From an uncultured Planctomycetota bacterium (lineage in GTDB: Bacteria; Planctomycetota; Phycisphaerae; UBA1845; UTPLA1), in assembly GCA_900696465.1 (NCBI GenBank), contig CAADGE010000015.1, forward strand, positions 1-52,661: a stretch of 52,661 nt of DNA. The letters are read 5' to 3'. The notes below the pieces were generated by a model, which did not search any database, was not told the origin of the DNA, and saw only the letters and a list, made by a program, of their open reading frames with translations. Shown piece by piece: positions 23,764 to 44,270 of this stretch; the first letter of the stretch is position 1, and each line of letters opens with the position of its first letter. The translations under genes were made by a program, and so were the position numbers.

Positions 23764-25317
23764 ATGAACGAGAACGAAATGGATAATCGGACTTACTCGG
23801 ACGGCTTCTCCTCGCGGAGCGTCGCAGCCCTGCTGGCTGCCTGCTGCTTCGTGCTGATTTCTGTTTCGCAGGTGTCGGCTGCGGAGGATGCAACTGCCGC
23901 ACAGGCCTTCCGAAAACAGTTGCACAACGTGCTAACCGGCCACGGCGACCCGAAGGCGCGAATGTCCGTCCGTGTCGTTGACTTGTCCACCGGTCAGAGC
24001 ATCTACGACCACGACTCCGATACCTGTCTTATTCCTGCGAGCAACATGAAGCTGATGGTCATAGCCGCTGCGATCGATCGCTTCGGGACGGATCACCAGT
24101 TCCAGACCATCCTCGCGATCCGCGGTCGCGATCTCGTCGTGGTCGGCGGTGGCGACCCGACCTTCGGTGACGAGAAGCTCTGCGCCGCCCGCGGCGAGGC
24201 CATCACCGCCGTCTTTCACGAATGGGCCGGGAAACTCAAGGCCGCAGGCATTCAGCAGGTCTCAGGAAACCTGGTGATTGACGACTCCTGCTTTGACCGT
24301 CAGTTCATTCATCCGAATTGGCCACCGGACCAGTTCCAGGCGTGGTACGAGGCCCCGATCGGCGGTCTCAATTTCAATGCGAATTGTTTCGATGTTTCCG
24401 TCAAACCCGGCAAGCCCGGACAGCAGGCCGCCGTTTCGCTGGTCCCCGGCAACGTCCTGCTCAAGATCGTGAACCAGACCAGGTCCGGTGAGAAACACCA
24501 GCCGGCCGCTCGCCGCAAGGCCGGTACCGACGAAGTGATCGTCAGCGGCAGCGTTACCCGATCAGACCGGCTTGGCCCGATTACCGTCCGCGATCCTGGT
24601 CTCTACTTCGGCTACGTCTTACGGACGGTTCTCGCTGCCAAGGGCATTCGGGTTCAGGGCAACGTAGTCCGCGAGAAAGTCGATCTCGGTCCGGATCGCA
24701 TTCCGGTCGGAGGTCATGGTGTAGCCATTCATCGCGCGCCGATGCTGGATGCCGCCCAACGCGCAGGTCGGCAGAGTCTCGGCATGATGGCTGAGGGGCT
24801 CATCAAGCTGCTCGCAAAGGAGGAAACAGGTGTGGGCTCGTGGGATGGTGGCCGGATGGCGATGGAAAAATTCTTCCTCAAATCCGGCGTTTCACCGGGT
24901 CAATTCACGGTAGACGACGGCAGCGGTCTTTCGCGCCGCAATCTGCTCAGCGCCACGGCGACCACGCAAGTCCTCGCCGCCATGTACAAAGCCCCCGGAG
25001 ACCGCTTTCAGGCCTTGCGAGATTGTCTCGCCCGGCCTGCACGCGACGGCACTCTCAAGCGTCGCATGACCGGCCCGGATACAAAAGACCGCATCTTCGC
25101 CAAGACCGGCTACATCAACGGCGTACGCACCCTCGCGGGCTATGTGCAGACGAAGTCCGGGAGATGGCTGGCGTTCGCCATTTACTACAATGGCACCGGC
25201 AAGACTCGTCCACTGGCGCAGCTTCAGGATAAGGCGTGTGAAATCATGGTCCGCTGGCCTGACCTCAGTACGACCGGTCAAACCGCCGGCGCGGCCTCAG
25301 ACGGGGCTTCCCGGTAG
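23764..25317 (+). CDS. dacB: D-alanyl-D-alanine carboxypeptidase/endopeptidase (PBP4, peptidase S13)
   Basis: This periplasmic penicillin-binding protein trims peptidoglycan peptides and cross-links. Its 517 residues begin with a signal peptide (VAALLAACCFVLISVSQVSAA). The SxxK motif is S93-N-M-K96 in PASNMKLM, followed by the S13-type insertion domains (GNLVIDDSCFDR, WPPDQFQAWYEAPIGGLNFN). The SGLSRRN segment (about 381-387) and K447-T-G in FAKTGYINGVRTLAGYV complete the active site. Two ATGs, 23764 and 23779, are possible; neither has a strong ribosome site. Its 3' end overlaps the convergent DUF1844 gene by 21 nt. Confidence 0.9.
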   Translation: MNENEMDNRTYSDGFSSRSVAALLAACCFVLISVSQVSAAEDATAAQAFRKQLHNVLTGHGDPKARMSVRVVDLSTGQSIYDHDSDTCLIPASNMKLMVIAAAIDRFGTDHQFQTILAIRGRDLVVVGGGDPTFGDEKLCAARGEAITAVFHEWAGKLKAAGIQQVSGNLVIDDSCFDRQFIHPNWPPDQFQAWYEAPIGGLNFNANCFDVSVKPGKPGQQAAVSLVPGNVLLKIVNQTRSGEKHQPAARRKAGTDEVIVSGSVTRSDRLGPITVRDPGLYFGYVLRTVLAAKGIRVQGNVVREKVDLGPDRIPVGGHGVAIHRAPMLDAAQRAGRQSLGMMAEGLIKLLAKEETGVGSWDGGRMAMEKFFLKSGVSPGQFTVDDGSGLSRRNLLSATATTQVLAAMYKAPGDRFQALRDCLARPARDGTLKRRMTGPDTKDRIFAKTGYINGVRTLAGYVQTKSGRWLAFAIYYNGTGKTRPLAQLQDKACEIMVRWPDLSTTGQTAGAASDGASR

Positions 25318-25683: not shown

Positions 25684-25949
25684 CGGGGCTGCCTCCGGAT
25701 AGTTCGTGTCTCATAGCCAATCGTTGATTCAATCCGTGACCCAGCAATAACTCAAAAATCGGCGTCCCGCAAGCAGGTCGGCAAAATCGTAAAAAAGGGC
25801 TTGCCCAAAGCGACCGAATCAGGCCAAACTGGTAGACCTTCTTCGACGTCGGTGACGTTGAGGAGCGGGCCACGGGCCGTCCGCGGTCGCGCTGACGCGT
25901 TTTCTCACACCAGACAACTTGGCCTCTTTTTGGGCAGGAGGACGAAACC
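25684..25949. other. Divergent intergenic region, DUF1844 / TldD-like
   Basis: This 266-nt gap must hold promoters for both directions. It contains the AT-rich patch around 25781-25800 (AAATCGTAAAAAAGGG) but no -35/-10 pair I would defend. The ribosome site GGAGGACGAAACC for the TldD-like gene is at its right end. Confidence 0.4.
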
Positions 25950-27704
25950 ATGAAACGACGAAGCCGTCACTTCGAGTGCCGATTCTTCGCGTGCGCGCTG
26001 GCCGCCGCGATGCTGCTGACGTGGTCGGCGCAGCAGGTCGTACAGGGAGCAGACAAAGCTCATCCGCTGCTGGACATCCTCCAGAGCGAGATGGACTTGT
26101 CCATGAAAGGACTGGTCGGCGCGGACGACATCAAGCCCTATTTCATCGAGTACACCGTCAGCGACCAGCACAGCATCAGCATCTCCGCGACGCTCGGTGC
26201 CCTGACCAACGAAAGCGAGAACCGCAGCCGTCTTCTCGATGTCAGCGTCCGCTGCGGCGATTACGCCTGCGACAACACACGGCAGATTCGTGGGCAGGGC
26301 TACCTGGGCGCATTGGAAGGCCGCATGGGTGGTCAGACGGCTCTCCCGCTTGATGACGACCCCATCGCCACGCGCCACGCCGTCTGGCTGGCGACGGACG
26401 AACAGTTCAAATCCGCCGTGCGTCGCCTTGCACAGGTCAAAGCCAACCTCAAGGTCAAGGTCGAGGAGGAAGACCCGTCCGACGATTTTTCGAAGGAAGA
26501 GCCGAGCGTCCACATCGGGCCCTGGGTCGAACAGTCCTGCGACCGCGTGTGGTGGGCCGAGCGGATGCGCAAGCTCTCGCGTCGATTTCGCGATCATCCG
26601 CAGATCTACAGTTCCAGTGTTTCGCTCAGCGGCAGCGCCGGCAATCGTCTCGCAGTCAACAGCGAAGGCAGCCGCCTCCAGTTCGGCAGGGGGTGGTGGC
26701 GCGTCGGTATCTACGCAACAACCATCGCCGAAGATGGAATGGAACTCTGGCAGTACAAGTCTTTCGACGCCCACAGCCCCGACGGTCTGCCGGATGAGAA
26801 CACACTCGCAGATGCCGTCGATCAGCTCATTCAGGAATTGAAGGCCCTGCGGGATGCTCCGATCGTCGATCCCTACACCGGTCCGGCCATTCTGATGAAT
26901 CGCGCCAGCGGCGTCTTTTTTCACGAAATCTTCGGCCACCGCATCGAGGGACATCGTCAGAAGGACGTTGAGGAGGGGCAGACCTTTGCCAAGAAGATCG
27001 GCAAGGAAGTCCTGCCGTCCTTCCTCAGCGTGATCGACGACCCTTCGAAACGACAATTCGGCAAGATCGACCTGAACGGCTTCTTTGAGTTCGACGACGA
27101 ATCCGTGCCTGCACAGCCGGCTCGCCTTGTTGAACAAGGCGTCCTGAAGTCGTTCCTGCTCTCCCGCTCACCGACTCGGGGATTTACCAAGTCCAACGGT
27201 CATGGCCGCGCACAACCTGGCATGAAGCCCGTCGCCCGGCAGGGAAATCTTTACGTCGAATCGACAAAGCAGGTTCCCTTTGCCGAGTTGCGAAAGCTGC
27301 TGATTGAAGAGGTCAGGCGACAGGACAAAGAGTATGGCCTGCTCTTCAGCGATATCTCCGGTGGCTTCACGATGACCCAGCGCTGGATGCCGCAGGCCTT
27401 CAAGGTCATGCCCATCCTCGTCTATAAGGTCTATGCTGATGGCCGCCCTGATGAACTCGTCCGCGGCGTCGACATCGTCGGTACGCCGTTGACCTGCTTC
27501 TCAAAGATCATCGCCACCGGCGACGACCCGGACGTGTTCAATGGCGTCTGCGGCGCCGAGTCCGGCATGGTTCCCGTCTCGGCGATCTCGCCGAGCATTC
27601 TGGTCGAACAGATCGAGATCGAGAAGAAACAGAAGGCCCAGGATCGCCCGCCGATTCTCGATGCCCCGATCGCATCCGAGCGGAAGGCCACGGCACAGCG
27701 TTAA
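25950..27704 (+). CDS. Exported TldD-like metalloprotease (catalytic type)
   Basis: A 584-residue member of the TldD/PmbA (peptidase U62) family. Unlike cytosolic TldD it has a signal peptide (FACALAAAMLLTWSAQQVVQGA), so it should act outside the cytoplasm. The zinc motif is present: H325-E-I-F-G-H330 in FFHEIFGHRIEGHRQ. Typical family stretches are NSEGSRLQFGR, DPYTGPAILMNRASGV, LLSRSPTRGFTKSNGHGR and FSDISGGFTMTQ. It is about 100 residues longer than E. coli TldD, mainly in the N-terminal domain (DIKPYFIEYTVSDQ). It is followed 30 nt later by a paralogue without the zinc motif, echoing the TldD/TldE heterodimer. Confidence 0.85.
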   Translation: MKRRSRHFECRFFACALAAAMLLTWSAQQVVQGADKAHPLLDILQSEMDLSMKGLVGADDIKPYFIEYTVSDQHSISISATLGALTNESENRSRLLDVSVRCGDYACDNTRQIRGQGYLGALEGRMGGQTALPLDDDPIATRHAVWLATDEQFKSAVRRLAQVKANLKVKVEEEDPSDDFSKEEPSVHIGPWVEQSCDRVWWAERMRKLSRRFRDHPQIYSSSVSLSGSAGNRLAVNSEGSRLQFGRGWWRVGIYATTIAEDGMELWQYKSFDAHSPDGLPDENTLADAVDQLIQELKALRDAPIVDPYTGPAILMNRASGVFFHEIFGHRIEGHRQKDVEEGQTFAKKIGKEVLPSFLSVIDDPSKRQFGKIDLNGFFEFDDESVPAQPARLVEQGVLKSFLLSRSPTRGFTKSNGHGRAQPGMKPVARQGNLYVESTKQVPFAELRKLLIEEVRRQDKEYGLLFSDISGGFTMTQRWMPQAFKVMPILVYKVYADGRPDELVRGVDIVGTPLTCFSKIIATGDDPDVFNGVCGAESGMVPVSAISPSILVEQIEIEKKQKAQDRPPILDAPIASERKATAQR

Positions 27705-27734
27705 CCGGCGACTTTGCAAACCGGAGGAATCATC

Positions 27735-29531
27735 ATGAATCGGTTGAATAAACTCGCAGCGATACTCGCGACCATTGCTCTGTTCGGCTCAACCAGTCTA
27801 CTCGCCGAGGACCGCCCGGCCGCCACGACGGCCGAGACGGTTCGCAAGGAGATGCAGCAGGATGTCGTCCTGCGCGCCCTGGTGGATGAACTGGCCCGAA
27901 ACATCGAGCGACTGAAGATCGAGGACATGGCCCAGCCCTATTTCATCGAATACGCACTGAACGATGGCACCGGTGCCTCCGTTTCCGCCCGGCTTGGCGC
28001 CGTCACCAGCCGCCGCGCCGATTCGCGCAGCCGCCGGCTCCGCACCGATGTGCGCGTCGGTGATTACGAACTGGACAACACCAACTTTCAGAGTGGTGGT
28101 TTCGGCGATTTTGGCTTCAGCGGCATGGGCGGTGGCATGTCCGGAATCAGCGTGCCGATCGAGGACGACTACACCGCCATCCGCCAGGCCCTCTGGTGGG
28201 CCACCGATCGCGACTACAAGTCTGTGGTCGAGGCCCTGGAGCGCAAGAGGGCCTTTATGGAAACCAAGCTGATTGAGGACAAGCCCGAGGATTTTTCGCG
28301 GGAGAAGCCCTCCGTGCATTTCGAGACGCCGGTCCGCGTCGAGCTTGACCTGGCGGCCCTCGAGAAGCTCGCCGTCGAATTATCCTCTATCTTTCGAGAG
28401 TTTCCCGACGTTCAGAGTTCCATCGTCAGTGCCTCCGGCGGCGCGTCGAATCGCTATCTGGTCAACAGCGAAGGCACCCGCATCCGCACGGCGAACACGA
28501 GCTATTCAATTACGATCACGGCTACCGTGCAGGCCGATGACGGCATGAAGATGACTGACACCATCACCGAGCGGGCCGAATCACTCGACAAGCTGCCGTC
28601 GCATTCCGATCTCGAAAAACAGTGTCGCGAGATGGTCGCACAGCTTCTGAAGATCAAGGACGCGCCTAAACTCGATGCCTATACCGGCCCCGTGCTGTTC
28701 GATGCCAGACCTGCGGCACAGATCTTTTTCCAGACCTTCTCATCCCGGTTCGCCGGGGGACAGCGTCCGGTCGGTGGGCAGGCGCAACCTGACGATTTCG
28801 AGAAGAAAATCGGCACCATCATCCTCCCCAAGAGCTTTACCGTGATGGACGACCCCACGCGCGAAGAGATCGATGGCACGCCCGTCGCCGCGCACTACCG
28901 GTACGATCAGCAGGGCGTTCCTGCGCAGCCCGTAACGCTTGTCGAGAAGGGCAAGCTGCTGGCCCAGGTCATGTCGAGGAACCCGTCTAAGGTTGCGAAG
29001 TCTTCTACCGGCCACGGTCGGGGAGACTGGCGCCCGAGTGCCTCGACGGGATGCCTGGTCGTCCAGACCAAGGGCGGCAAGAGTGTCGACGACCTCAAGC
29101 AGAAGCTCATCGAGCTCTGTGAGCAGGAGGACCTCGAGTTCGGCATTCGCATTGCAGCGCTGGGTGCCACCAGCGGCGGTATGGATAACCGCTTCAGCAT
29201 GCTGATGGAGTCCCTGGGCGGTGACTTCGGATTCAACCGCTTCGGCGGTGCGGCCGCGACACCCTTGGCCATCTACAAGGTCTATCGCGACGGACGTGAA
29301 GAACTCGTCCGTGGTGCCGAGATCGCCCGGATCGACCTGAAGGCCTTCAAACGAATCCCGGCCACAGGCAAAATGCTGTACGTCCACAACACCGGCAGCG
29401 GGGCCAGCGCCAAGACCGTCGCCGCGCCGGCCATGCTCTTCGAAGAACTGGACCTGGCGAAGATTGACCGCGACTTTGACAAACCGCCGATCCTCCCGAC
29501 GCCGCTCGCGCGGGCAGACAGGGAGAATTAA
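27735..29531 (+). CDS. Exported TldE/PmbA-like partner (zinc motif absent)
   Basis: A 598-residue paralogue of the gene upstream. The ATG at 27735 has an excellent GGAGGAATCATC site; the open extension to 27714 does not. A signal peptide is clear (KLAAILATIALFGSTSLLAE). Shared landmarks are QPYFIEYALNDG, GDYELDNT, FLVNSEGTRI-like YLVNSEGTRIRT, DAYTGPVLFDAR and a closing PPILPTPL. Where the partner has HEIFGH this protein has FQTFSS, so it cannot bind zinc in the same way. By analogy with TldE it is probably the non-catalytic subunit of a heteromeric exported protease. A Gly-rich loop (GGFGDFGFSGMGGGMSG) is inserted near residue 120. Confidence 0.85.
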   Translation: MNRLNKLAAILATIALFGSTSLLAEDRPAATTAETVRKEMQQDVVLRALVDELARNIERLKIEDMAQPYFIEYALNDGTGASVSARLGAVTSRRADSRSRRLRTDVRVGDYELDNTNFQSGGFGDFGFSGMGGGMSGISVPIEDDYTAIRQALWWATDRDYKSVVEALERKRAFMETKLIEDKPEDFSREKPSVHFETPVRVELDLAALEKLAVELSSIFREFPDVQSSIVSASGGASNRYLVNSEGTRIRTANTSYSITITATVQADDGMKMTDTITERAESLDKLPSHSDLEKQCREMVAQLLKIKDAPKLDAYTGPVLFDARPAAQIFFQTFSSRFAGGQRPVGGQAQPDDFEKKIGTIILPKSFTVMDDPTREEIDGTPVAAHYRYDQQGVPAQPVTLVEKGKLLAQVMSRNPSKVAKSSTGHGRGDWRPSASTGCLVVQTKGGKSVDDLKQKLIELCEQEDLEFGIRIAALGATSGGMDNRFSMLMESLGGDFGFNRFGGAAATPLAIYKVYRDGREELVRGAEIARIDLKAFKRIPATGKMLYVHNTGSGASAKTVAAPAMLFEELDLAKIDRDFDKPPILPTPLARADREN

Positions 29532-36021: not shown

Positions 36022-38061
36022 ATGACGCCCATCGACTGGTTCATCGTTGCCTGCATGTACCTGCTGCTCTTCGCCGGCGCCATGAAGGCCGGTCGGCGGA
36101 TGCAGAGCGTTGCCGATTATCTCTCCGCGGGCCGCACGGCCGGTCGCTATCTGCTCGCCATCGCCTGCGGAATGGCCGGTCTCGGCGGCATCAGCATCAT
36201 TCGCGATTTTCAGATGAACTACGAAGCCGGCTTCGCCATGGCCTGGTGGGGCATGAGCATGTCCGTCGTCCTGGTCATCCTCGCCGTGACCGGCTGGGTG
36301 AATTATCGCTTCCGTGCGACGCGATGCCTGACACTGGCTGAGTTCTTCGAGCGCCGCTACAGCCGTCGATTCCGTATCTTCGCAGGTCTCGTCGCCTTCG
36401 GTGCAGGCATCATCAATTTCGGAATCTTTCCCGCGGTCGAAGCCCGGTTCATCATCCACTTTCTCCATCTCCCCGAAGGCCTGTCGCTCGGCGGAATCAC
36501 GGTTTCGACTTACCCGGTGATCATGTTGTTCCTGCTCGGCACGGCGGTCTGCTTTGTCTTTCGCGGCGGCCAGGTCACCGCCATGATGACCAGCTTCCTG
36601 CAGGGGGCTTTCGCCAATCTGGTCTTCGTGATCCTCGCGGTCTTTCTGCTGCTGCTGATTCCCTGGCGGCAGATCAGTGAGGTGCTCACGCAGGTGCCTC
36701 CCGGTCATTCGAAGATCAATCCCTTCGACACGGGCTACGTCGAAACGTTCAACTTTCGCTTCTTCATCATCGGGGTCATGGGCGTCGTCTACAACGCGAT
36801 GTCCTGGCAGGGCACCCAGGGCTACAACAGCTCCGCACGCAGCGCCCACGAAGCCAAGATGGGCATGGTCATCGGCACCTGGCGCGGCTATCCGCAGAGT
36901 CTGCTCATCATGCTGGTGCCGATATTGATCTTCGTGGTCATGCACCATCCTTCCTGGAGCGATCTTCAGCTCCGTGTTGATGCAGATCTGTCGCTCATTC
37001 CGAACAGCGAAGTTCGAAGCCAGATGCGGGTGCCGATCGCGCTGGCAGAGCTGCTGCCCACGGGTCTTCTCGGGGCCTTTGCCGCGCTGATGCTCTGTGC
37101 TTCCATCAGCACTCAAAGCGCCTACATGCATTCATGGAGCAGCATTCTGATACAGGATGTGATCCTTCCCTTGCGCGGCAAGCCGATCTCACCTGCCCGA
37201 CACCTGCTTCTGTTGCGGCTTTCTGCAATCGGCGTCGCCTCCTTCACCTTTGTCTTCGCCATGTTCTACGAGCAGAATCAGGCCATCGCCCTCTTCCTCG
37301 CGCTGACCGGCGCGATCTTTGCCGGCTGGTCCGGGGCGGTGATCATCGGGGGGCTCTACTGGCGGCGCGGTACGACACAGGGCGCCTGGGCTGCGGCGAT
37401 CCTGGGCATCGGCATTGCCCTTGGAGGTCTGATCCTGTCCAGCGCCAATGCCGACTATCAGACTACGGGGCGCGCGCTCTGGGGCTGCGCCGACTGGCTG
37501 GGGGCGGATCGAACGGCGGCCATCGGCGCCTGGTTGAATCAACATCTTCCCAACGGGCAGGAACTCTGGGGCCTGGCCATGCCCACGTGCATGACCACCT
37601 ACATCATCGTGTCGTTGATTTATCGCCCGAGAAAGTTTGAGTTGGACCGCCTCCTGCATCGCGGCAGATTCGCCGTGGAGTCGGACGTGCCGACGACGCA
37701 GGGTGAACCGTCCTTCGGGTGGCGCGTGCTGGGCATGAATCGGTATTTTACCCGCCGCGATCGGTTCCTGTACATTCTGACATATCTCTGGACCGCCGGC
37801 TGGGTCGTGATCTTCGCGATCGGCACGGTGTACATGCTGACGGTCGGGTCCTCTGCGGATACCTGGCGGCGATTCGATCCGGGGTGGATGAAGTTCTGGC
37901 AGGTATATATCTGGATACAGGTCGGCATCGCGCTGACGGTGGTCATTTGGTTCACCGTCGGTGGCATTCGGGATGTCGTGAACATGTTCCATCAGCTTCG
38001 TACCATGAAGCGCGACATCCACGACGATGGTGTCGTGCGCGAGGAGCCGTCGGCCGGATGA
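36022..38061 (+). CDS. Sodium:solute symporter (SSF) family transporter
   Basis: A 679-residue integral membrane protein with 13-14 predicted helices. The N-terminus IDWFIVACMYLLLFAGAMKAGRRMQSVADYLSAGRTAGRYLL has the SSF pattern, including ADYLSAGR. Later stretches such as AFAALMLCASISTQSAYMHSWSSILIQDV and ALFLALTGAIFAGWSGAVIIGGLYWRR match the conserved helices 8-11. Co-substrate is probably Na+. It overlaps the GH130 gene by 4 nt and that gene overlaps GH38 by 4 nt, so the likely solute is a mannose-containing sugar. The SSF family alone does not tell the substrate. Confidence 0.9.
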   Translation: MTPIDWFIVACMYLLLFAGAMKAGRRMQSVADYLSAGRTAGRYLLAIACGMAGLGGISIIRDFQMNYEAGFAMAWWGMSMSVVLVILAVTGWVNYRFRATRCLTLAEFFERRYSRRFRIFAGLVAFGAGIINFGIFPAVEARFIIHFLHLPEGLSLGGITVSTYPVIMLFLLGTAVCFVFRGGQVTAMMTSFLQGAFANLVFVILAVFLLLLIPWRQISEVLTQVPPGHSKINPFDTGYVETFNFRFFIIGVMGVVYNAMSWQGTQGYNSSARSAHEAKMGMVIGTWRGYPQSLLIMLVPILIFVVMHHPSWSDLQLRVDADLSLIPNSEVRSQMRVPIALAELLPTGLLGAFAALMLCASISTQSAYMHSWSSILIQDVILPLRGKPISPARHLLLLRLSAIGVASFTFVFAMFYEQNQAIALFLALTGAIFAGWSGAVIIGGLYWRRGTTQGAWAAAILGIGIALGGLILSSANADYQTTGRALWGCADWLGADRTAAIGAWLNQHLPNGQELWGLAMPTCMTTYIIVSLIYRPRKFELDRLLHRGRFAVESDVPTTQGEPSFGWRVLGMNRYFTRRDRFLYILTYLWTAGWVVIFAIGTVYMLTVGSSADTWRRFDPGWMKFWQVYIWIQVGIALTVVIWFTVGGIRDVVNMFHQLRTMKRDIHDDGVVREEPSAG

Positions 38062-39032
38062 AGCGCCATCCGAACAATCCGATTCTCACGCGGCAGGACA
38101 TTCCGCCGATCACGCCTGAGCTGGTTGATGTCACGTCGGTCTTCAACCCCGGAGCGGTTCACTGGCAGGGCGAGGATCGCCTGCTGCTCAGGGTGCAGAC
38201 GCGCGGACGGGAGACGCGACTCCTCTGGGCCGATCGAATGGATGGCTCGAATGAAAAATGGAACGTGCGGCCGCAGCTTGTTTCCCTCAGGGGGATCGAA
38301 CGGCTGCCGGTACGGGCCTATCACGTCTACGACCCGCGCCTGACCGTGCTCGAGGGAAATCTCTATGGCGTGTTCGCAGTGGATACCGATGTGGGCTGTC
38401 GATTGGCGATTGGAATCTGCCGGGACGGTCACCATTTTGAGCTGATCTCTTTTGATCCCGATGGCGACCGAAGAAACGGCGTCCTGTTTCCCGAGCGAGT
38501 CGGCGGGCGTTTTCTCCGCCTGCAGCGCCCTAATGCGCAAACCCTCGCAGGCGGACCTCGCTCCGGCTCACAGATCGAACTGGTTGAATCAGATGACCTT
38601 GTCACCTGGCGCGTTGTCGGCCCTGTGATGGATGGCCGCTGGCGATACTGGGATGAGTTGATCGGATCCGGTCCGCCGCCGATTCGCACGCACGCGGGAT
38701 GGCTGCATCTGTATCACGGTGTCGCCACGCACTTTGCGAGCGTGAATATCTATCAGGTGGGTGCCGTGCTTTTGGACGACTCGAATCCCGCCCGGGTAAT
38801 AGCACGAAGCCGGCTCAATCTTCTCGAACCTCGTGAACCCTACGAATTGACCGGCCAGGTTCCCAACGTCGTTTTCCCGGGAGGCATGCTCGTCGATTCG
38901 TGCGATGCGAGCGGAGTCGCCACGCCGTACAGCGTGCTGCGAGTGTACTATGGCGCGGCGGACACGTGCGTCGGCATGGCAATGACGAGCGTGAAGGAAC
39001 TCCTTGACGCATGTGAGCCCGTTACATCATGA
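38058..39032 (+). CDS. Glycoside hydrolase family 130 protein (mannoside phosphorylase type)
   Basis: A 324-residue five-bladed propeller enzyme. GAGGAG precedes the ATG, which lies inside the transporter's stop; the longer in-frame extension to 37719 is a shadow of the transporter. GH130 features in order: HPNNPILTRQDIP, SVFNPGAVHWQGEDRLLLRVQ, YDPRLTVLEGNLYGVF, GVLFPERVGGRFLRLQRP, IELVESDDLVTW, GSGPPPIRTHAGWLHLYHGV and VPNVVFPGG...VYYGAADTCVGMA. Characterised members phosphorolyse or hydrolyse beta-mannosides (for example mannosyl-GlcNAc). No signal peptide, so it acts in the cytoplasm on imported sugar. Confidence 0.85.
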   Translation: MKRHPNNPILTRQDIPPITPELVDVTSVFNPGAVHWQGEDRLLLRVQTRGRETRLLWADRMDGSNEKWNVRPQLVSLRGIERLPVRAYHVYDPRLTVLEGNLYGVFAVDTDVGCRLAIGICRDGHHFELISFDPDGDRRNGVLFPERVGGRFLRLQRPNAQTLAGGPRSGSQIELVESDDLVTWRVVGPVMDGRWRYWDELIGSGPPPIRTHAGWLHLYHGVATHFASVNIYQVGAVLLDDSNPARVIARSRLNLLEPREPYELTGQVPNVVFPGGMLVDSCDASGVATPYSVLRVYYGAADTCVGMAMTSVKELLDACEPVTS

Positions 39033-41842
39033 AGAAACCACGCATCGCCCACATCGTTTCACATACCCACTGGGATCGGGAGTGGTATCGCACGTTTCAC
39101 GTTTACCGTGTCTGGCTCTGCCGCACGGTGAAAGCCGTACTTGCGGCACTCGAACAGGACCCCGCGTTCAAACATTTCCTGCTCGACGGTCAGGCGGTGA
39201 TCCTCGAAGACTACCTTGAAGTGCATCCGGAAGACGAGACTCGCATTCGCGAGCATGTGCGGACCGGTCGGCTTACCATCGGCCCCTGGTACATGCTTCC
39301 GGACGAATTCATCGTCAGCGCGGAGTCGCTGGTACGCAATGTGCTCGTCGGTCACGCTGTCTGTCAGAAACACGGCGGCCAGAACCGTGTCGGCTACATG
39401 CCGGACACGTTCGGACACGTCGCCCAGATGCCGCAGTTACTTCGCCAGGCGGGGCTCGATTCGTTCATCTACTGGCGCGGCAACGGCGACGAGATCGATG
39501 AACTGGGCCTCGAATATACATGGGAGGCGCCCGACGGAAGCAGCGTGCTCGCCATTCAGCAGGCCGGCGGATATTGCAATGCAGCAGGGCTCGGTCATCG
39601 GGAGATCTGGCATGCGCACACGCGAAAGACCGTCGATCTTCAACTTGCATCCCAGCGAGTGGGCGATCTGCTCCATGCGATCGGCGAACGAGCCAATACC
39701 CCTATCGCGCTCCTGAACAACGGCTGTGATCACTTTCCGCCGCAACGGGACTTCGGTCGTGTGCTGTCACAGCTTCAGAAGGATCATCCCGCCGTCGAGT
39801 TTCGCCACGGCCCGCTCACGGACTATCTGGCAGATGTCCGCCGTTCTGCATTCGAGCCGAAGCGATTTTGCGGGGAGATGATGAGCGGCAAACTGGCGCA
39901 CATCCTGTCCGGCGTGTGGTCGGCGAGAATGTACATCAAGCAACTGAACGACCGCTGCCAAACCCTGTTGGCGTCCTACCTGGAACCATTCTCTGCATAT
40001 GTTCACTTCATGCGGGGTCACGATTACCCCGCTGGCGCGATCGGGTACGCATGGAAGCTCCTGCTTCGGAATCATCCCCACGATTCGATCTGTGGATGCA
40101 GCATTGACGAGGTACATGCCGACATGATGCCGCGGTTTCGCGGCGTGATCGATACAGCCGAAGAAACGCTTGTTCGCCAGATGGAATCGCTCGCACCGGA
40201 GTTTGCCCGGGAAGACGCGGGCGACCGCGACACGGTGTTGTGCGTGATGAACACGGTGCCGCATCATCGTCAGGCAATCATCGAGCGGCTGGTGATTCTG
40301 CAACCCTGCTGCGCGGACGTCAGCGCGCTCCGCCTGCTCGATTCAGCCGGCCGCGAAATGACGTGCCGGATCGTTGACGTGTCGCATGTCGAACGATTCT
40401 GGGGTGTGGATTACCGCCTGTTTCTCGATGTCCGACCGCAGCTCGAGCAGTTCGATATCTATCGCCGCGACTTCGGGCCGCGCATTCTGAAGAATCGAGT
40501 CGAAACACCGCTGACCGATCGTTACGTCCTGCTTCAGTTCCTTGCGAGCGACCTGCCGGCGGTCGGACATGTCAACTACTTCCTTACGGATCGTCCACCA
40601 GTGGAACCGGGGGAGCCGCCGCCCCCTTCGGTCGTTGTGAACGGCTCGACCATTGAAAACTCGCACGTCCGGATCGTCGTTCAGCCGAACGGCACCTTCG
40701 ATCTGACGGACAAGCAAAGCGGCAGAACATTTTCCGGTCTCAATCTTCTCGAAGACACCGAGGACGTAGGCGATGAATACGACTACTCGCCCGGCGAACA
40801 ATCCTCCACTGTCACGTCGGCAGCTGTAGCAGGCGGATTATCCGTTTACCGTGATACGGGTCTGGTCGGCACGCTGGAGGTGAGTTTCGTATTGTCTCTG
40901 CCGGCCGAAATACAGCCGGATCGACGGGCACGGTCATCGCGAATGATCAACTGCCCCGTGCGCATGAGGATCGGACTCAATGCGCTGGACAGCGTGGTGG
41001 ATATCAGCGTTGAAATCGAAAATGGCGCGAAGGATCATCGTCTCCGGGCATGTTTTCCCGCCGGCATCCGCACCCATCACGTTCACAGCGACGGACATTT
41101 TCTCGTCAACCGCCGTCCGGTCGATCGCCCAAGCGGCGAAGCGTGGGTGCAGCCGAGTCCGCGCACCTATCCGCAGCAGGAATTCTCCGCAATTGAGGAT
41201 GAGCGTGGAGGCCTGGCGATCTTCAATCGCGGACTACCGGAGATTGAGCCGATGCGCGACCAGAAGGGCGGCGTCGGCCTGTCGCTGACCTTGCTGCGCT
41301 GCGTCGGATGGCTGTCGCGCGACGACTTCCCGACGCGCCGCCGACAAAATGCCGGACCCACCGTGGCAACGCCCGACGCGCAGTGCATCGGCACACATCG
41401 ATTTGAGTATGCGGTGATGCCGTTCCGAGGAAGCTGGTTGCAGGCGGGTGTCAAACAGGCCGGCCAGTCCTGGCATGCGCCGCCACTGGTCGTGCAGGGT
41501 GTCGAAGATCAGCAGGCGGAGGGCGGCATCGGCCTAGTTCGGGCTTCTTCTAAGCAGGTGGCGATCACGGCCATCAAAAAGCACGAATCGCGCGATACAC
41601 TGATCGTGCGGCTGTACAACCTCGCCGATGCACCGATCAGGGAGCGGCTCGAATTCGGCCGAAAGCTGAAGGCCGTGTGGAGCACCAATCTGCTCGAAGA
41701 GCGTCAGGGCGACCTTCCCGTCATCACCGAGAATGCGGTCACACTGGAACTCGGGCCGCACCGCATTGCAACAATTGAGTGCGAATTCCAGTCTCGCGAC
41801 CCTGAGACTCCGGACGGCGGCGATCACCAACCAGAAGCATGA
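39029..41842 (+). CDS. Glycoside hydrolase family 38 alpha-mannosidase
   Basis: A 937-residue zinc-dependent retaining alpha-mannosidase. Zinc ligands H12 and D16 lie in SHTHWDREWY, the nucleophile D126 in GYMPDTFGH, and the second His cluster in NNGCDHFPPQ and LLLRNHPHDSICGCSIDEVHADM. LDGQAVILEDYLEV (about 52-65) is also diagnostic. The C-terminal beta-sandwich domains follow. There is no signal peptide, so it is cytoplasmic like bacterial MngB-type enzymes. It is the last gene of a 4-nt-overlap operon after the transporter and the GH130 enzyme. Together they would import a mannoside and cut both alpha and beta linkages. Confidence 0.92.
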   Translation: MKKPRIAHIVSHTHWDREWYRTFHVYRVWLCRTVKAVLAALEQDPAFKHFLLDGQAVILEDYLEVHPEDETRIREHVRTGRLTIGPWYMLPDEFIVSAESLVRNVLVGHAVCQKHGGQNRVGYMPDTFGHVAQMPQLLRQAGLDSFIYWRGNGDEIDELGLEYTWEAPDGSSVLAIQQAGGYCNAAGLGHREIWHAHTRKTVDLQLASQRVGDLLHAIGERANTPIALLNNGCDHFPPQRDFGRVLSQLQKDHPAVEFRHGPLTDYLADVRRSAFEPKRFCGEMMSGKLAHILSGVWSARMYIKQLNDRCQTLLASYLEPFSAYVHFMRGHDYPAGAIGYAWKLLLRNHPHDSICGCSIDEVHADMMPRFRGVIDTAEETLVRQMESLAPEFAREDAGDRDTVLCVMNTVPHHRQAIIERLVILQPCCADVSALRLLDSAGREMTCRIVDVSHVERFWGVDYRLFLDVRPQLEQFDIYRRDFGPRILKNRVETPLTDRYVLLQFLASDLPAVGHVNYFLTDRPPVEPGEPPPPSVVVNGSTIENSHVRIVVQPNGTFDLTDKQSGRTFSGLNLLEDTEDVGDEYDYSPGEQSSTVTSAAVAGGLSVYRDTGLVGTLEVSFVLSLPAEIQPDRRARSSRMINCPVRMRIGLNALDSVVDISVEIENGAKDHRLRACFPAGIRTHHVHSDGHFLVNRRPVDRPSGEAWVQPSPRTYPQQEFSAIEDERGGLAIFNRGLPEIEPMRDQKGGVGLSLTLLRCVGWLSRDDFPTRRRQNAGPTVATPDAQCIGTHRFEYAVMPFRGSWLQAGVKQAGQSWHAPPLVVQGVEDQQAEGGIGLVRASSKQVAITAIKKHESRDTLIVRLYNLADAPIRERLEFGRKLKAVWSTNLLEERQGDLPVITENAVTLELGPHRIATIECEFQSRDPETPDGGDHQPEA

Positions 41843-42071
41843 TTCGGTAGCTGCCAACTCATCCCGCGGCAGATTCTCGCTCACGAACAGCAGATTATCG
41901 GTTCCTGCGGGGTCGAATTTTAGCGACCTCCGGCATATGATGTATAGACTCGGCCCCCTTGGCGAGCGACTCCGCAGCGTGTCGCCCCTCCGATTCGCCT
42001 CGAGGTGTGCCGGTCAGGGTCGGATTGAGGCGGGTCAATCTGCTCCTCCGAGTACCTGTGAGGCGGGGAAA

Positions 42072-44270
42072 ATGGGCGCGACGTTTTACCGAGTAACCTT
42101 ACTCACGCTGTGGGCCTGCGCAGCGATCGTGTCGGCAACGAGCGCTGCCGCATACGCACAGGCACCAGTGCCCGACGGCGCCCGCGATCATACGAAACTC
42201 CTCCTTCGCACCGGTACGGTCGACCTTGCTTCCCGTCCATCGCTGCACCGCACAGGCGCGGCCTATGAAGCCGACACACCCTATGTCATTCATCTGGACG
42301 GCCCAATGACACCCGAGCGCCGCGCCGCGCTGGAGGCAGTCGGTGTGGTCCTGCAGCAATATCTGCCGATGCACGCCTACCTTGCGGACCTGGGAAAGGC
42401 CGACCCAGATGCCCTGGCCGCGATGGAGTTCGTCGACTGGATCGGCGCGTTTGATCCCGCTTGGAAACTCAGCCCGGACATCGGCCCGCGGACCTTCCGC
42501 GAGCCGGATCGGCAGGCACTGGAGCGCGGCGGTCGAAAGCGGCTCATCGCAGAGTACTTCACCGACGCGCCGCAATCGCGCATCCGACGTGATCTGGAAA
42601 AGCTAGGAGCAAAAGTTCGTGGTCCGTCGCGCGCCGGCGATCGGCGTCAGTGGATCGTCGAGATGGACCAGGCGCGCATCGCCGCACTCACGCAGGACAA
42701 GCGCATCCTGTTTGTGGAAGAAGCACCTGAGGCCGAACCCCGAAACGCCAGCAGTTCGTGGATCATCCAGAGCAACACGTCGAACTACCGTCCCCTCTGG
42801 GACGCGGGTCTCCTCGGCCAGGGACAGATCATCGGCATCATCGACTGGGACATGCGTGCAGATCATTGTGCTTTCGAGGATCCGGATGGCCATCCGATCG
42901 GCCCGCTTCACCGCAAGATACTTGCCTATTACGGCATGGGCATCAACCCCGGGTTCGGCTATCACGGTACCCACGTCGCCGGTGTAGTCGCTGCCGATGA
43001 GCTGGCCAACACCAACCCCGAACTCAAAGGCATGGCCTACAAGTCGAAGATCGTCTTCCAGCATTACAACGGCGTCCTTGAAGGAGGCACGCTCAACGTC
43101 TTCAATCGGCTCACCATCGCCCACGATGACGGTGCCCGTGTGCATAACAACAGCTGGGGCAACAACGACTTCTTCTACAACGCCTGGGCTCGTGACATCG
43201 ATCTGTTTACTCACACAAATGAAGAGGACCTTGTCCTCGTCGCCGTTATCAACGGCGGCCAGGTCCGCGCACCGGAAAATGCCAAGAACTGCCTCGCGGT
43301 TTCCGGCTCTCGCGACGCGCCCAATCAGCACCAGCATTGCGTGGGTGGCTCTGGGCCCACGGCCGACGGCCGTCAGAAACCCGAGGTCCTCGGCGTCGCA
43401 TGTGGTTCGCGTTCCGCGGATGTCAACAACATCTGCGGGAACAGTGACACGGGTTTTGGCGGCGGCACTTCGTACGCTACGCCCGGCGTCTCAGGGATGG
43501 CCATTCTCATGCGGCAGTATTTCATGGAGGGCTTCTTCCCGACCGGCGCCGCCAACCCCTTGCACGTCTTCATACCGAGTGGCGCGCTCCTCAAGGCCCT
43601 GATTGTCAACAGCGCGGTCGATATGTCAGGTGTCGCTGGCTATTTTACGGCCACCGAAGGTTGGGGACGCATCCTCACGTATGACACGCTCTACTTCGCA
43701 GGCGACGTCCGCCGTCTGCTCCTGGAAGACATCCGTCACGCCGATGGCTTGTCGACCGGTCAAACCGAATCTTATTACGTCTCCGTCGGCCCCGGCGCGA
43801 CGCCGCTCAAGATCACGCTCAACTGGACCGATGCCCCCGCCGCCGTCATGGCCGCTTTCACACCGATCAACAATCTCGATCTGGTTGTCACCTCGCCGAC
43901 GGCTGTTGTCTACAAGGGCAACGTCTTCAGCGGCACACAGTCTACCACCGGCGGCGCCGCGGACGCGGTCAACAATCTGGAGCAGGTCCATCGCACAACG
44001 CCGGCATCGGGAATCTGGCGCATCGACGTAAACGCCACAGCCGTGAATGTCGGCACGCAAGGGTACGCACTCGTCGTCACCGGCGATGTCGACTGTCTCC
44101 GAGGCGACGTCAACGGCGACGGCATCGTCAACGGCGAAGACATCGGCCCGTTTGTGCGGGTCATCCTCGAAGGCGGCACCTTCTTCCAGCGATGCACCGC
44201 CGACATGAACATCTCAGGCGAGGCCGACGTACTGGACGTGGACGGCTTCGTGGCCGCATTGCTGAACTGA
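42072..44270 (+). CDS. Secreted S8 serine peptidase with C-terminal type I dockerin-like repeats
   Basis: A 732-residue exported subtilase. The ATG at 42072 starts a signal peptide (VTLLTLWACAAIVSATSAAAYA); the open region back to 41733 is not coding-like. Triad: D258 in IIGIIDWDMR, H301 in GTHVAGVV and S467 in GGTSYATPG. The oxyanion Asn is in VAVINGG, where most family members have AAGN. The N-terminal 230 residues look like an inhibitor-type propeptide (HTGAAYEADTPYVIHLDGPMTPERRAALEA-like). The C-terminus has two calcium-loop repeats, GDVNGDGIVNGEDIGPFVRVI and ADMNISGEADVLDVDGFVAAL, typical of dockerins. A scaffold partner is not in the window. Confidence 0.88.
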   Translation: MGATFYRVTLLTLWACAAIVSATSAAAYAQAPVPDGARDHTKLLLRTGTVDLASRPSLHRTGAAYEADTPYVIHLDGPMTPERRAALEAVGVVLQQYLPMHAYLADLGKADPDALAAMEFVDWIGAFDPAWKLSPDIGPRTFREPDRQALERGGRKRLIAEYFTDAPQSRIRRDLEKLGAKVRGPSRAGDRRQWIVEMDQARIAALTQDKRILFVEEAPEAEPRNASSSWIIQSNTSNYRPLWDAGLLGQGQIIGIIDWDMRADHCAFEDPDGHPIGPLHRKILAYYGMGINPGFGYHGTHVAGVVAADELANTNPELKGMAYKSKIVFQHYNGVLEGGTLNVFNRLTIAHDDGARVHNNSWGNNDFFYNAWARDIDLFTHTNEEDLVLVAVINGGQVRAPENAKNCLAVSGSRDAPNQHQHCVGGSGPTADGRQKPEVLGVACGSRSADVNNICGNSDTGFGGGTSYATPGVSGMAILMRQYFMEGFFPTGAANPLHVFIPSGALLKALIVNSAVDMSGVAGYFTATEGWGRILTYDTLYFAGDVRRLLLEDIRHADGLSTGQTESYYVSVGPGATPLKITLNWTDAPAAVMAAFTPINNLDLVVTSPTAVVYKGNVFSGTQSTTGGAADAVNNLEQVHRTTPASGIWRIDVNATAVNVGTQGYALVVTGDVDCLRGDVNGDGIVNGEDIGPFVRVILEGGTFFQRCTADMNISGEADVLDVDGFVAALLN

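Follow-up and report, generated by a model that had tools for sequence, protein, structure and literature searches.

Within a 52,661-nucleotide stretch of DNA from an uncultured Planctomycetota bacterium (contig CAADGE010000015.1; this whole stretch is referred to as the window), two adjacent forward-strand genes encode a predicted exported TldD-like catalytic subunit (open reading frame ORF1, or exD; positions 25950 to 27704, 584 residues, ATG start) and a likewise predicted exported, non-catalytic paralogue (ORF2, or exE; positions 27735 to 29531, 598 residues). The pair belongs to a predicted exported subfamily of TldD/PmbA-type proteins that occurs in many phyla. We consider it probable that the two subunits form a Sec-exported, closed-chamber metallopeptidase of the TldD/PmbA fold that trims unfolded peptides in the cell envelope, where export, complex formation and catalysis are what we infer. 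In the following, D and E refer to the catalytic and non-catalytic members across all relatives, and L followed by a number denotes a locus.

Both proteins matched PF19289, the C-terminal PmbA/TldD metallopeptidase domain, well above its curated cut-off of 22 bits (ORF1, 107.1 bits, E 9.5e-31; ORF2, 51.3 bits, E 1.1e-13), and ORF2 also matched PF19290 (E 9.5e-5). They are 34% identical to each other over 556 columns (pairwise alignment, E 1e-91) and share the motifs PYFIEY (residues 63 and 68 of ORF1 and ORF2, respectively) and GDYxxDNT (residues 103 and 109), which had been noticed in the initial annotation. They are the sole PF19289 matches within the window genome, and a search of that genome with an exported-E profile likewise returned these two proteins only. 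PF01523, the first TldD domain, was matched by neither ORF at E <= 0.001 nor by any protein of the window genome, while the same search was positive in 10 of 14 control genomes. ORF1 fell far under the TldD equivalog cut-offs (50.4 versus 513 bits for NF008006; 76.7 versus 635 bits for NF040952), and ORF2 gave no match to the TldE/PmbA model NF008268 at E <= 0.1. When the PDB was searched by sequence alone, ORF1 retrieved TldD (5nj5, E 5.9e-14).

As had been proposed, ORF1 carries an HExxxH motif, HEIFGH, at residues 325 to 330 (positions 26922 to 26939, forward strand), and to this can be added C534 (positions 27549 to 27551), the predicted third metal ligand, which lies in the sequence VCGAESG and aligns, in the comparison with 5nj5, with C454 in the VCGKEG of E. 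coli TldD. We aligned 65 D-E pairs, namely the window and 64 of 80 distinct loci, leaving out loci with cut or odd-length genes. Two other alignments omitted the split D of L099 (alignment A1) and the frameshifted E of L063 together with the E of L091 (alignment A2). H325, E326, H330, E333, H335 and C534 are invariant in 65/65 D rows, so the HExxxH plus C534 pattern is not a matter of chance. At the same six columns the commonest residues of the 65 E rows differ from those of D; 15 of them have Glu in the column of E326, and the metal ligands are not preserved as a site. In ORF2, an equivalent of C534 is absent from the pairwise alignment, and the segment opposite HEIFGH is degenerate, as had been stated, except that the aligned stretch is QTFSSR (positions 28731 to 28748, forward strand), one residue later than the FQTFSS given originally. 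An alternative metal site in ORF2 was also looked for, but no His or Cys column reached 85% in the 65 E rows; the best-kept His among those checked, that of an NGHGR motif common to D and E, is present in 50 of 65. The catalytic/non-catalytic division is thus borne out, at the level of aligned residues, by all of these pairs.

Predicted structures assign both proteins to the TldD/PmbA fold. Since the window's two genes share a reading frame, with a spacing of 30 nucleotides and one stop codon between them, a tethered chain of 1193 residues could be made by reading that stop as Gly, and it was folded using 9 paired rows plus 26 rows of E. The resulting AlphaFold2 model had a mean predicted local distance difference test (pLDDT) score of 85.9 and a predicted template modeling (pTM) score of 0.84. 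Its D half superimposed on TldD (5njc_A) with Z 35.7 and a root-mean-square deviation of 3.4 over 448 of 479 residues, whereas E folded alone (pLDDT 88.8, pTM 0.86) matched 5njf_C with Z 24.5 over 440 of 480 residues, tied with TldE and PmbA entries. In Foldseek searches with both models, all 16 matches at E <= 0.001 were TldD/PmbA structures. The N-terminal domains had been described as enlarged, a description that does not hold: residues 35 to 561 of the ORF1 model align to residues 4 to 481 of TldD, indicating an ordinary TldD N-domain and ruling out a new one. Relative to E. coli TldD, the HExxxH motif is displaced by 63 residues towards the C-terminus (325 versus 262), and the signal peptide accounts for about half of this shift. 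As two halves lacking a fixed mutual position should give a much lower pTM, a defined D-E arrangement is predicted.

Export is suggested by the N-termini. ORF1 begins with a putative Sec-type signal peptide of about 33 residues (positions 25950 to 26048, forward strand; possible cut VQG|AD), and model pLDDT is low over approximately residues 1 to 30; ORF2 begins with one of about 24 residues (positions 27735 to 27806, forward strand; possible cut LLA|ED). Both were positive in a home-made heuristic that asks for a 10-residue hydrophobic stretch, a positive net charge of the N-region and small residues at -3 and -1, in agreement with the initial annotation. The same was true of 33/38 D and 32/35 E proteins in the relatives set plus the window, and of 75/80 D and 71/74 E proteins among the 80 distinct loci; several of the negatives have a strongly hydrophobic N-terminus but fail the net charge or the cleavage-site rule. 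Only 2 of 44 canonical-type TldD/PmbA ORFs were positive, both of them with twin-arginine translocation (Tat) motifs. These signal-peptide-like starts speak for a probable location outside the cytoplasm. One E gene, that of L176 (9665-11419), starts with SRRQFAALLAAARSLSA, which resembles a Tat rather than a Sec signal.

The pair is widespread. Contigs of 84,980 species were scanned with two patterns, under which a locus can count twice, and at least 586 stretches (not distinct loci) were confirmed as relatives; 80 distinct loci were retained among the matches listed. By record title they come chiefly from Acidobacteriota (29), Planctomycetota (13), Verrucomicrobiota (4) and Elusimicrobiota (4), alongside many candidate phyla. 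The record names of L150 (Alphaproteobacteria) and L220 (Bifidobacterium breve) seem unfit for the genes they carry and are probably bin labelling errors. Because seven contigs occur in both of the two locus sets, 1 and 2 (L148/L087, L150/L072, L151/L070, L153/L068, L157/L066, L164/L089 and L179/L095), counts from the two sets are not added. Among 61 relatives of the window genome, 26 gave a match, 24 of which belong to the exported family, the remaining two (G021 and G038) being low-scoring hits to PF01523-type proteins outside it; each of the 24 family-bearing genomes holds both D and E. A sample of 294 genomes from the phylum gave 145 matches, most of them no stronger than the weak scores that canonical proteins reach. 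On plasmids, 47 records matched, none over more than 80% of the query, and the 15 matches listed were partial, with 23-28% identity. Export as a plain relocation of the cytosolic pair was considered and is not general: 16 of 20 other pair-bearing genomes, drawn from the 80 loci, also hold PF01523 proteins, as do 3 of the 24 pair-bearing relatives.

A probable association of the two subunits in one complex, also suggested originally, is indicated by gene arrangement together with the joined model. In 76 of 80 loci, two of them fused, D is followed directly by E; of the other four, three belong to genomes with a further E-profile match elsewhere, and in the fourth D stands at a contig end. Four D-E fusions were found (L081, L096, L161 and L166, the last truncated at the 5' end). 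A signal-like segment opens each of the three complete fusions, and no hydrophobic stretch lies between the halves in any of the four. With start codons chosen for signal-like starts, the D-E junction was -4 nucleotides in 37/74 loci and -1 in 7/74. D and E distances are also strongly correlated over 65 pairs (r = 0.92; highest of 1000 permutations, 0.12).

Although the initial annotation had treated ORF2 as a TldE, its ancestry appears to be different. A tree was computed from 69 hand-picked rows, comprising 17 D-E pairs (16 of the 64 aligned above plus the window), 28 of the 44 canonical-type ORFs and 7 single proteins. The 17 exported D and the 17 exported E rows each formed one group (support 99, starred), and the two groups joined each other with support of 83 (not starred). 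Exported D, exported E and the single proteins together occupied one side of a branch with support of 100 (starred), while PmbA/TldE fell on the side of canonical TldD. Forcing exported E together with PmbA/TldE cost 67 log-likelihood units, and this single origin was rejected by the approximately unbiased (AU) test (p = 0.0008). Both the grouping and the test indicate that exported E is most likely a paralogue of exported D. It is therefore likely, though not proved, that the dead partner arose by duplication inside the exported lineage, apart from the cytosolic TldD/TldE split; and as exported E groups with exported D and not with PmbA/TldE, the split into active and dead subunits probably evolved twice.

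The system most closely comparable is TldD/TldE of E. coli (TldE is also called PmbA; MEROPS M103; PDB 5NJ5). In its description (PMC5810440), TldD/E is an intracellular protease whose promiscuous active site is concealed within a shell, inside a hollow heterodimer thought to be entered via a narrow channel, and it clips unfolded N-termini largely irrespective of their sequence; the metal ligands of TldD are H262, H267 and C454, the base is E263, and TldE is described there as having no ligand. The exported pair resembles TldD/TldE in the fold over both domains of both subunits, in an HExxxH plus Cys metal site confined to one subunit and in the two-subunit division. It differs in having predicted signal peptides on both subunits, in the later position of the ORF1 motif (about 33 of the additional residues being signal peptide), in its lack of PF01523 matches and equivalog-level scores, and in the apparently separate origin of the dead subunit. 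D-E identity, 34% in the window with a within-locus median of 29% over the 65 loci, compares with 18% for TldD/TldE (PMC5810440). Closest to the exported pair in the tree are single TldD-like proteins from other planctomycete families (L043-L056), with HEAMGH or HEALGH motifs and 31-35% identity to exD; unlike the exported pair, the singles L100 and L101 show no signal peptide, and no partner homologue was found in either of the two stretches read.

By analogy, the pair might work as follows: both subunits would leave the cytoplasm by Sec-type signal peptides, most likely placing the pair outside it, and would assemble into a predicted 1:1 heterodimer with a hollow core; ORF1 would coordinate a single Zn or Fe by means of H325, H330 and C534, with E326 presumably acting as the general base, as in TldD, and ORF2 would close the shell without providing a metal site; and the chamber would take in unfolded peptides or N-termini by threading and shorten them step by step, with no strong sequence preference, a property transferred from TldD/E. 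The likely role would be to trim or clear away unfolded peptides of the cell envelope in a general manner, to which the compartment, the breadth of the family and, in Acidobacteria, a link to lptF-lptG (see below) all point.

Several points weigh against this reading. ORF2, by sequence alone, retrieved no TldD/PmbA entry of the PDB at E <= 1. The signal-peptide heuristic is lax, since 252 of 666 ordinary neighboring ORFs were also positive, although this background includes true exported proteins, and start codons were picked with a preference for signal-peptide-like starts, affecting both the signal and the junction counts. The joined-chain pTM suggests a D-E interface but is no proof of one. 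The tree was a quick one that drew a long-branch warning from the program, and the AU test was specified with the tree already in view. E evolves faster than D (mean identity 34% versus 49%, 65 rows) and could thus have drifted to another role. Lastly, the two relatives of the same genus showed no match, so the pair is probably dispensable.

The faster evolution of E could alternatively mean that ORF2 is a decaying duplicate in the course of being lost and that D works alone as a homodimer, as the single HEAMGH/HEALGH relatives may do. We give this the least credence of all the alternatives, because E is kept beside D in nearly all loci, is fused to it in four, often has an overlapping junction with it and retains a confident predicted fold. 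The pair might also be an exported amidase or N-deacetylase instead of a peptidase, as the superfamily is said to include N-deacetylases; the metal ligands and fold match the peptidase TldD, and even though these features do not separate the activities, we find such a function very unlikely. Scarcely more probable is a dedicated role in processing one exported substrate, such as the leader peptide of a ribosomally synthesized and post-translationally modified peptide (RiPP) or a peptide antibiotic, resembling the E. coli role in microcin B17 maturation but acting after export. Roles of TldD/E in RiPP maturation are known (PMC5810440 and PMC10885120), but presence across many phyla argues for a general function, and the neighboring genes give no support to a RiPP role. 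Neighbor clusters were built from 119 loci; 16 clusters occurred in at least five loci, and none of the seven representatives scanned for families is a RiPP gene; nor does any family found among the scanned window neighbors count for it. The latter comprised a PBP4-type peptidase, DUF1844, an amidohydrolase, an O-methyltransferase, GGDEF and SH3 proteins, a symporter, a subtilase, sugar enzymes and five proteins that matched no family.

By far the most widely spread of the neighbor clusters consists of a fused lptF-lptG gene (representative, PF03739, E 1.8e-150), and it raises the question of whether the pair is an envelope-biogenesis factor tied to lipopolysaccharide transport, trimming or clearing unfolded partners of the Lpt machinery. 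Among the loci carrying an Acidobacteria or Aminicenantes label, 28 extend downstream of the pair, and 19 of these have the fused gene directly after E; the gap measures 2-18 nucleotides in 15 cases, and D identity within the 19 goes down to 53%. However, nine of the 28 lack it, and over the whole set of 119 loci the search did not find it in 100, among them the window and many loci with short flanks; an operon neighborhood may also mean shared expression only. The gene order points to envelope biogenesis in one phylum and does not fix the substrate; we regard such an Lpt role as unlikely, if somewhat less so than RiPP processing. The acidobacterial order exported tldD-like, tldE-like, then fused lptF-lptG occurs in L176, L182, L184, L185, L187, L189, L190, L194, L198-L201, L203, L205, L207-L209, L215 and L218. 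Returning to the exported trimming peptidase that we prefer, a bolder form of it would be an undescribed, widespread and ATP-independent closed-chamber "pencil sharpener" of the envelope. Its subunit split would be independent of that of TldD/TldE, and its task would lie in envelope biogenesis, where in Acidobacteria it would act next to the LptF-LptG exporter of lipopolysaccharide. This is a possibility that we put forward tentatively, as something that may well not be the case.

Outside the cytoplasm there is no ATP to power the classical compartmental proteases. If the proposed function is correct, the principle of a shell with a hidden active site would also be used outside the cytoplasm, in many phyla; the separate origin of the dead partner would amount to a natural repeat experiment on the need for an inactive half; the natural fusions would offer ready single-chain constructs; and the acidobacterial tldDE-lptFG order would provide a testable link to outer-membrane assembly. 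An exported TldD/E pair was not found described among the open-access papers listed, as judged by titles and abstract openings, with subscription papers mostly outside the search. A "Peptidase U62", MXAN_2519, is listed among the Myxococcus proteins enriched in outer-membrane vesicles (PMC4158809).

A second kind of apparently exported TldD was encountered in the order to which the window belongs. In seven genomes, a canonical-type TldD carries a twin-arginine motif and a lipobox-like Gly-Cys (loci L222, L223, L224, L226, L228, L230 and L232; also L102-L104, L107, L108, L110 and L111). Like exD, these proteins (e.g., L103, L104, L108, L110 and L111) appear to be exported catalytic proteins of the TldD fold, but unlike the exported pair they are PF01523-type canonical proteins with HESCGH or HETCGH motifs and lie on a different branch of the tree. 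Their TldE partners, judged by eye, have no signal in six of the seven genomes, the start being ambiguous in the seventh. These partners could be carried along as Tat hitchhikers or else not be exported at all. Within this order, TldD export thus appears to have more than one origin.

Shine-Dalgarno-like sequences precede both window genes on the forward strand: AGGAGG at positions 25936 to 25941 ahead of ORF1, and GGAGG at positions 27723 to 27727 ahead of ORF2. The latter makes the ATG at 27735 the likely start of ORF2; a TTG at 27714 was rejected, as it has no such site. No conserved functional neighbors were found in planctomycetes, where several neighbor clusters partly repeat the same genomes and no cluster of at least five loci includes the window. 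The neighboring gene upstream of ORF1, at positions 23764 to 25317 (forward strand), encodes a D-Ala-D-Ala carboxypeptidase of the S13/PBP4 type whose N-terminus includes a hydrophobic segment. Further downstream, a protein with a subtilase (S8) domain is encoded at positions 41733 to 44270 (forward strand), near GH130 and GH38 genes (positions 37719 to 41842) and a sodium:solute symporter gene.

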